NCBI GenBank assembly: GCA_017883205.1
Contig: JADGNZ010000031.1
Location: forward strand, 1 to 64,000
Source: Thermoanaerobaculia bacterium
GTDB taxonomy: Bacteria > Acidobacteriota > Thermoanaerobaculia > Gp7-AA8
Reading direction: 5' to 3'
DNA length: 64,000 nucleotides
A program made the position numbers and the translations under genes. This document shows positions 59,461 through 62,488 of this stretch, in pieces (the first letter of the stretch is position 1; each line of letters starts with the position of its first letter). A model generated the notes under the pieces. The model saw only the letters and a program-made list of their open reading frames with translations. It was not told the DNA's origin and did no database searches.

Positions 59461-59980
59461 AGTCGACGGATCAAGAAGTACGGCCGAAGGATTAAAAGCA
59501 CCGACGTTGGTTCAAAGAACACCGTCGTTGGTTCGAAAAGCACCGTCGATGGTGCAAGACGTACCGTCGATGGTTCAAAAAGCACCGTCAATGGCCGAAA
59601 AGCACCGTCGGTGGTTCAAAAAGCACCATCGATGGCCGAAAAGCACCGTCGATGGTTCAAAAAGCACCGTCGATGGCCGAAAAGCACCATCGTTGGCTCA
59701 AAAAGCACCATCGACGGATCAAAAAGCACCGTCGATCGATCAAAACGCACCATCGATGGTTCAAAAAGCAACGTCGATGGATTAAAACGCACCATCGTTG
59801 GCTCAAAAAGCAACGTCGATGGATCAAAACGTACCGTCGACGGATCAAAAAGCAACGTCGATGGATCAAAACGAACCATCGTTGGTTCAAAACGTACCGT
59901 CGTTGGTTCAAAACGTACCGTCGTTGGTTCGAAACAAGCCGTCGATGGCGTGAAACACAACTCCGACGGTCAAAACACAC
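59461..59980. repeat. Tandem array C: about 25 units of 21 bp built on ACCGTCGAYGGT
   Basis: The unit is ACCGTCGATGGTTCAAAAAGC, 21 bp: a near-perfect palindrome (ACCATCGATGGT in some copies) plus an A-rich spacer (TTCAAAAAGC or CCGAAAAGC). Spacers alternate between TTCAAAAAGC and CCGAAAAGC in the left half, giving a 42-bp higher-order repeat. Edges are degenerate (AGTCGACGGATCAAGAAGTA at left, CTCCGACGGTCAAAACAC at right). All three plus frames stay open for much of it because of the 21-bp step, but no frame has a ribosome-binding site or a plausible fold. The interval 59224-60165 holds no gene. Confidence 0.9.
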
Positions 59981-60165: not shown

Positions 60166-60978
60166 CTAACCGCGCACCCCCTCCGCCCACGCCACCGAAA
60201 ACCAGAGTGCGGCGTCGGGACGTTGCGACCAGCGGACGTATTCCGCCATCACACGGTCGTAGGCGTCCGCGTCGAACAGGCGCAGCGACACGATCGCGTC
60301 GCGGGCGCTGTTGACGACGCCCGCCATGTTCGCCGCAAGCGTCGGGAACGTCTCCATTCCCGCACAGCCTCCGAAGAAGATCCACGTATTCCGAACCGGC
60401 GCGGCGCCTGCTTCGTGCAGCAACTGCACGAGACGTCGGCCGACGAAGGGATCGTTGCCGATGCGGTCGTAGGCTCGCATGTAGGCGTCCCAGAGGCTCA
60501 TCCAGCCCGCCGGCTCCGGCCACAGGCGCATCACGCCGTGGTCGTCATCGGCGAGGATGATCCGCCCTCCCGGCCGGACGGCGCGAACCATCGAACGGAC
60601 CGCGGCCAGAGGATCGGGGATGTGCTCGAGTAGAAAGCGCGTGTGCGCGACGTCGAAGGTTCCCCACCCGTCACCCAGCTCAAGCGCAAGCGCGTCACCG
60701 GCGCGAAACTCCGCGAGCTTCGCTTCACCATCGTTCTCAGCGAGCCGCAGCGCCTGAGCGAGTTGCGCTTCGTCGCGCTCGATGCCAACGACATGGCCAT
60801 CCGGAACCGCACGCCCCATCGTCCGCGTGAACTGTCCCAGGCCCGAGCCGAGATCGAGAATCCGCTCGTTCCCGCGCAACTGCATCTCGCGCAGCATCGC
60901 GGAATTGAGTAGAACGTCGTTCATCAGCGACAAGCGCCGCTGTTCGCTGTCGTCCGTGCCATGAATGTAGATCGACAT
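60166..60978 (-). CDS. Class I SAM-dependent methyltransferase
   Basis: The product has 270 residues. SAM-binding motif I ERILDLGSGLGQFTRTMG (about 38-55), motif II GHVVGIERDEAQLAQA, the acidic loop FRAGDAL, and LAAVRSMVRAVRPGGRIILA are typical. The ATG at 60978 abuts the stop (TAG 60979-60981) of the DedA-rhodanese gene, so the two are co-translated. Substrate unknown. Confidence 0.88.
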   Translation of the reverse strand: MSIYIHGTDDSEQRRLSLMNDVLLNSAMLREMQLRGNERILDLGSGLGQFTRTMGRAVPDGHVVGIERDEAQLAQALRLAENDGEAKLAEFRAGDALALELGDGWGTFDVAHTRFLLEHIPDPLAAVRSMVRAVRPGGRIILADDDHGVMRLWPEPAGWMSLWDAYMRAYDRIGNDPFVGRRLVQLLHEAGAAPVRNTWIFFGGCAGMETFPTLAANMAGVVNSARDAIVSLRLFDADAYDRVMAEYVRWSQRPDAALWFSVAWAEGVRG

Positions 60979-61914
60979 CTAGGTCAGCACCTCCACCGGA
61001 AAGCCGGCGTCGATCCATCCGTCGAGGCCACCAGCGAGCGGCCGCACCTTCGTGTATCCCTTGTCGATGAGCATGCGCGCCACACGGGCGGCTGAGGCTT
61101 CGTTTGGTCACGTGCAGTAGAGCACCACCTCCTGATGGGGTGCCAGATCGCCAAGTTGTGCGTCGATGTCGCTGAGGAGCGCCAGGATCGCGGTGGGGAT
61201 GGATCGTGGATCGTGCTTGCGGGCGCCAGGTGTGCGGACGTCGAGCACCACCGGCAGCTCGCCGCGGTCGAGCATCGCTTTCAATTCGTGCGGCTGAATG
61301 CGCGCCGTGCGCAGTTGCTTGATGAACTGGATGCGCTGCGCCCACTTGAACACGATCACGAGTGCGAGCAACGAGCCGACGATGATGATCGCCCACCATC
61401 CGAGGTTTTCGAGAGCTGCAAGAACGCGATCGATGGCGCGATGAAAGGCGCGGCCGGCCGCAACCGCGCTGCTGGCCCAGATCAGCGCACCGATGCCGTC
61501 GTAAATCACGAACGCCAGCGTGCTCCGCCCCGATGCTCCAGCGAGTGGCGGCGCAACCGTCGAGAATCCAGGAATGAACTTGGCGATGAGGAGCGACTTC
61601 AATCCCCACCTCTCGAACCTCGCTTCAGTGTCGCGCACGCACGAGTCAGGCGAAAGCGAGATGCGGCAAAGCGTCCGCAGGATCCGGTAGCCGAAGCGGC
61701 GCCCGAGGAGGAACCAGATGTAGTCGGCAATGAGGGAGGCGAAGAGCGCGGCCAGAAGAACGTGCGTCGACGACAACTTCCCATCGCGCGACAACGCGCC
61801 CGCCACGATGAGTGCAGGCACCGCAGGCACCGGCGCACCCAATTGTTCGAGCAGCACGTTGATGAAGATCAGCGGCACACCGTAGAGCAGGACGTAGTGG
61901 GCGAGCGAGGTCAC
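60979..61914 (-). CDS. DedA-family membrane protein fused to rhodanese, with in-frame UGA (candidate selenoprotein)
   Basis: The frame from ATG 61914 encodes a DedA (SNARE-associated) membrane domain (residues about 1-200; LIADYIWFLLGRRFGYRIL, LIAKFIPGFSTVAPPLAG) then a rhodanese-like domain (VVLDVRTPGARKHDP, EVVLYCT). At codon 269 it meets TGA (61110-61108), followed in frame by PNEASAARVARMLIDKGYTK and VRPLAGGLDGWIDAGFPVEV, the normal end of the domain, to TAG 60979. The family has CxCPNEAS here, so the UGA replaces the second Cys. A hairpin 21 bases after the UGA resembles a bacterial SECIS. Either selenocysteine is inserted or the gene has a recent nonsense mutation. Confidence 0.7.
61075..61092 (-). 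promoter_or_regulatory. Candidate bacterial SECIS hairpin
   Basis: On the minus strand CGCC (61090-61087) pairs with GGCG (61081-61078) and GC with GC beyond a one-base bulge. The loop is CGTGT, with G as second loop base. The loop begins 21 bases after the in-frame UGA. Bacterial SECIS elements have a short stem and a loop with an early G at about this distance. Such weak stems are common in GC-rich genes, so it is suggestive only. Confidence 0.35.
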
Positions 61915-62276: not shown

Positions 62277-62312
62277 CGATGTCCGCGAAACACACCACAC
62301 ACGGAAACAATA

Positions 62313-62488
62313 TGAAATCAGATCACATGAATGTGAAATCGGATCATATGAATGTGATCCCGGATCATATGAATGTGAAACCAGATCATATGAACGTGAT
62401 CTCGGATCATATGAACGTGAAACCAGATCACATGAATATGAAACCGGATCACATGAACGGGAAGTCGGAACCCGTGAACGGGAAGAGA
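62313..62488. repeat. Tandem array D: eight units of 21 bp built on GATCATATGAATGTGA
   Basis: Units such as GATCATATGAATGTGAAACC and GATCATATGAACGTGATCTC have an imperfect palindrome, GATCA...TGATC, plus a short spacer. All eight are exactly 21 bp. A frame from ATG 62279 to 62554 translates them as heptads (DHMNVKS, DHMNVIP, DHMNVKP, DHMNVIS) and continues through the flanks for 91 residues. It has no Shine-Dalgarno and the end is composition-like (RERFTRSRGERGASFSAP), so I give coding low weight. The last units decay (GAACCCGTGAACGGGAAGAG). The stretch 62203-62647 holds no other gene; the array ends about 160 bp upstream of the sigma factor. Confidence 0.85.

Follow-up and report, generated by a model that had tools for sequence, protein, structure and literature searches.

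Does the in-frame UGA codon of a gene that joins a DedA membrane domain to a rhodanese domain end translation, or is it read as selenocysteine (Sec)? The gene lies on the minus strand of contig JADGNZ010000031.1 of a Thermoanaerobaculia bacterium (Acidobacteriota; assembly GCA_017883205.1), of which positions 1 to 64,000 (the window) were analysed, and an earlier inspection of the nucleotide sequence had proposed it as a candidate selenoprotein gene. Domain searches and translation bore out the frame on which that proposal was built. Between 61914 and 60979 it matches both the VTT (DedA) and the rhodanese families (Pfam; 1.7e-13 and 6.6e-12, respectively), and it contains a single internal TGA at 61110–61108, in the context VVLYCT*PNEASAARVARMLIDKGYTK, where the asterisk marks the UGA. 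Forty-two sense codons lie between this TGA and the TAG, as originally described, but the TAG (60981–60979) is not separated by one base from the ATG of the following methyltransferase gene (60978), as had been stated; it abuts it directly, with zero bases between. Comparison with related sequences indicates that the UGA is very probably decoded as selenocysteine (a probability of about 0.96), the product being a predicted selenoprotein.

Codon 269 and its downstream hairpin

The fusion was sought in 296 genomes, of which 42, the host included, carry it with exactly one TGA. Every TGA among the fusion loci examined falls on codon 269. When stand-alone rhodaneses are included, the same codon is UGA in 58 loci (54 distinct sequences) and TGC or TGT in 34, and 33 full-length Cys orthologues, from Acidobacteriota and Pseudomonadota, carry TGC/TGT at codon 269. 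The claim that UGA occupies a position where relatives hold Cys is thus confirmed, and an alignment of UGA with Cys codons is the pattern by which a bacterial selenoprotein was to be recognised. A sequencing read error at the UGA was excluded, as the same codon recurs in many independent genomes. The closest named relatives are metagenome-assembled genomes (MAGs) of Thermoanaerobaculia and other Acidobacteriota, and the tree requires five Sec/Cys changes.

Two genomes carry second copies of the fusion (L101 in G235, L102 in G275) in which Ser or Arg replaces the Sec/Cys residue; both of these genomes also have one Cys copy, and neither has selA. UGA forms from MAGs titled Candidatus Rokuibacteriota (L057, L058) cluster within Acidobacteriota sequences, and represent either mislabelled MAGs or transfer.

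The machinery on which a selenocysteine reading stands or falls is all present in the host genome (6.37 Mb, 99.7% complete). Profile searches recovered selA (394.6 bits), selB (346 bits) and selD (367 bits, interrupted by a single in-frame TGA), and a tRNA-Sec with the anticodon UCA was found at 71 bits. The UGA of selD sits in TTGGUACKLG, and this position (GGUACK) is the usual Sec site of SelD; selD is itself a selenoprotein gene, and a stable hairpin follows its UGA. Two further rhodanese genes of the host, both short, have UGA at the same C-x-U place. One is on contig 31 near 46774 (YCAUQNEHTSARA, with a signal-peptide-like N-terminus) and the other on contig 100 near 152901 (YCTUPDEESSAGA). 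In each, the hairpin downstream of the UGA resembles that of the DedA-rhodanese gene, and the best NCBIfam match of both is NF041203, at scores under its cut-off. Across the genomes compared, SelA exceeded the cut-off in 42/42 UGA genomes versus 8/31 Cys genomes (Fisher p = 1.4e-12, a value that is optimistic because related genomes were treated as independent), and tRNA-Sec did so in 35 of the 42 UGA genomes.

The tail beyond the UGA is evidently translated, because Ka (non-synonymous divergence) is well under Ks (synonymous divergence): the post-UGA Ka/Ks is about 0.05–0.2 in close pairs, with Ka and Ks of, for example, 0.017 vs 0.348 and 0.052 vs 0.457. For the pair L027/L029 the part before the UGA gave an absurd value, probably through an indel, and this was ignored.

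A small hairpin, 21 bases downstream of the UGA and with a G early in its loop, had also been proposed, by analogy with the selenocysteine insertion sequence of bacteria (bSECIS). Its core is a 4 bp stem (5' arm 61090–61087, 3' arm 61081–61078) closed by the apical loop CGUGU (61086–61082). The published bSECIS criteria, with which the hairpin agrees, were a loop of 3–9 nt, a G in the first two loop positions, a spacing of 16–37 nt, an upper stem of 4–16 bp and a minimum free energy (MFE) of -7.5 or lower; here the loop has G second, followed by G or U among the UGA forms, the spacing is 21 nt and the core 4 bp, and the MFE is -8.6 to -9.6 with flanks and -7.3 in the shortest cut. By itself this hairpin is weak evidence, because it is no more stable than shuffled sequences, and stability was for that reason rejected as a stand-alone argument. 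That it is more than chance follows from comparison with relatives and not from folding energy. In the 54 distinct UGA sequences, Ala+7 is always GCC (53/53), Arg+8 always CGT or CGG (52/52) and Val+9 always GTG (47/47), while nearby Arg codons are mostly CGC (CGT and CGG together make up ~31%), and the frozen bases of codons +7 to +9 build the pattern GCC-[CGKGU]-GGC. In Cys forms these three codons are variable and Arg is rare, and the freezing marks a hairpin that Cys forms lack. The fourth stem pair covaries (CG 21, GU 8, GC 5, UA 1), with a score that 0/500 shuffles matched, although relatedness inflates this control, and the signal is lost when the partner is slid by 1–3 columns. Codon freezing and covariation thus agree with the hairpin and its early loop G as proposed, while folding energy alone is non-significant. 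A genome-wide search with the hairpin pattern gave 8 matches, three of them rhodanese selenoproteins, vs 3 control matches, and was rejected as evidence because it is too unspecific.

The DedA and rhodanese halves

The C-terminal half has a rhodanese fold according to its PF00581 match, a confident AlphaFold2 model (mean predicted local distance difference test score 87.3, predicted template modelling score 0.79) and the rhodanese-type entries among the Foldseek matches listed from the PDB. Residue C267 is invariant in the family. Loop alignments disagree on the equivalent of the catalytic-loop residue, with C267 matching the loop Cys of YgaP, and U269 that of 6mxv.

In the DedA half, residues C83 (83/83 family members) and C92 (82/83) lie within an inter-helix loop, and the pair was not found in 19 stand-alone DedA proteins. 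This loop is probably cytosolic, because of the positive-inside rule, and the rhodanese domain is probably so as well. Residues E39, D51, R130 and R136 of YghB have been reported as essential for undecaprenyl-phosphate flipping (PMC10127716). It is possible that the DedA half of the selenoprotein still flips this lipid, the rhodanese serving as an accessory sulfurtransferase domain, and in alignments to E. coli YghB most family members do retain E39, but R130 is Lys in all of them and both D51 and R136 are replaced in 81/81 labelled members, which makes such a role unlikely. The fusion family accordingly lacks the full residue set of the COG0586 undecaprenyl-phosphate flippases, while in the 19 stand-alone DedA proteins the D51 position is still acidic and the R136 position is still Arg. 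A DedA-rhodanese relative is carried by the megaplasmid of Cupriavidus metallidurans CH34 (L162:4001-4873), and the title of a work cited in PMC10127716 links a DedA protein of this species to selenite resistance.

With the flippase residues lost and C83/C92 invariant, a thiol/persulfide redox role is favoured. In the mechanism we propose, the hairpin 21 nt downstream would direct SelB, carrying Sec-tRNA(UCA), to codon 269, where the UGA would be read as Sec. The product would be a membrane-anchored DedA-rhodanese protein of 311 residues whose rhodanese active-site loop bears a C-T-U motif. C267 and Sec269 may act as a redox pair through a selenenylsulfide or a persulfide, and this pair could exchange electrons or sulfur with C83/C92 in the DedA half, which would be on the same side of the membrane as the rhodanese active site, probably the cytosolic one. 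That the protein is a selenoprotein and also takes part in redox or sulfur chemistry in some way is likely. That it works at the membrane as a thiol/persulfide reductase or as a sulfur relay, and not as an undecaprenyl-phosphate flippase, is tentative, and a shade more so is the proposal that it represents a redox system of a new type, with a DedA scaffold that has lost key lipid-flipping residues coupling C83/C92 to a Cys-x-Sec rhodanese site and moving electrons or sulfane sulfur at the membrane.

Weighing the readings of the UGA

Several results weigh against the selenocysteine reading and the role proposed with it. The hairpin of the host sequence alone showed no excess stability over dinucleotide shuffles (z 0.72, -0.30), and synonymous recoding gave a weak mean shift in energy (z -0.7 in UGA forms vs -0.3 in Cys forms). 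Seven of the 42 UGA genomes, all draft assemblies, had no tRNA-Sec at the strict threshold, and the redox role proposed for C83/C92 draws on conservation.

That the UGA is an ordinary stop, leaving a truncated DedA protein of 268 residues and a decaying tail, would accord with the standard code 11, which terminates at UGA, and with the non-significant hairpin energy, but is very improbable given the purifying selection downstream of the UGA, which also rules out a truncated pseudogene, and given that UGA is held at one codon over many genera, always with SelA. Equally improbable is a decoding that involves no selenium, in which an unusual tRNA or readthrough would insert Cys or Trp at the UGA. 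Orthologues do carry Cys at this position and bacterial tRNA-Cys(UCA) cases are known, but the host has tRNA-Sec(UCA), selA, selB and selD, and the frozen codons mark a hairpin that Cys forms lack, no genome-wide scan for other UCA tRNAs having been made. The original prediction of a candidate selenoprotein is supported by the sel genes, the Cys orthologues, the codon freezing and the covariation.

Coordinates of the features are collected in Table 1. Arrays of a 21-base tandem repeat, with long repetitive open frames, flank the DedA-rhodanese gene at 59494–59948 (~22 copies) and 62309–62484 (~8 copies).

Table 1. Features of the DedA-rhodanese locus (positions in the window)
Feature	Position	Strand	Basis and remarks
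DedA(VTT)-rhodanese selenoprotein gene (predicted)	60979..61914	minus	Probable GTG start at 61914; TGA=Sec269; TAG stop 60981-60979; 311 aa
UGA codon, predicted selenocysteine 269, motif C267-T-U269-P	61108..61110	minus	UGA in 42 genomes, TGC/TGT in Cys orthologues
VTT/DedA membrane domain, residues 29-154 (C83 and C92 invariant)	61453..61830	minus	Pfam PF09335; conservation
Rhodanese domain, residues 208-302, UGA inside	61009..61293	minus	Pfam PF00581; AlphaFold2 model; Foldseek rhodanese matches
Bacterial SECIS-like hairpin	61075..61092	minus	Frozen synonymous codons GCC-CGK-GTG; fourth-pair covariation; published loop/G/spacing rules
Class I SAM (S-adenosylmethionine) methyltransferase gene, abutting	60166..60978	minus	Kept beside the DedA-rhodanese gene in several family members

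Relation to known systems

Rhodanese selenoproteins with a CxU motif are known as form 3 (NF041203, rhodanese_LYCAU) in Table 1 of a 2026 selenoproteome review (PMC13188914). The DedA-rhodanese protein shares with them the LYCxU motif in the rhodanese loop (here YCTU), with UGA replacing Cys, and NF041203 is its best NCBIfam match. Unlike that 126-residue domain model, it includes a DedA membrane domain as well, and at 82.1 bits it remains below the curated cut-off of 115 bits; the fusion relatives tested score 48–93 bits. Fusions of DedA and rhodanese with Cys are also known, such as PA1209 of Pseudomonas aeruginosa and the COG0586 fusions (PMC12893004, PMC10127716). These have the same N-terminal DedA and C-terminal rhodanese domains (a likeness of architecture, PA1209 not having been aligned), but the UGA form differs from them in its Sec, which has been described for none of the known fusions. 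TsoB (NF045694, rhodanese/DsbD fusion-like; PMC13188914) is, judged by its name, likewise a selenoprotein in which a rhodanese is linked to a domain of membrane type. It has, however, another partner domain and a UxxxxU motif, and the DedA-rhodanese protein gave no match to NF045694. The main text of the 2026 review does not mention DedA, VTT, TVP38 or PF09335, and a literature search of open-access scope found no publication on a DedA selenoprotein. The selenocysteine DedA-rhodanese fusion is new relative to this inventory, against which its novelty was mainly judged.

The predicted protein would add a membrane-embedded type of selenoprotein that is widespread in Acidobacteriota, and that ordinary gene callers likely truncate at the UGA. 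A testable lead on the role of the unexplained DedA-rhodanese fusions comes from the invariant Cys pair and from the loss of flippase residues, and the repeated exchange of Sec and Cys, mostly with the Sec machinery absent, represents a natural experiment in selenium use.
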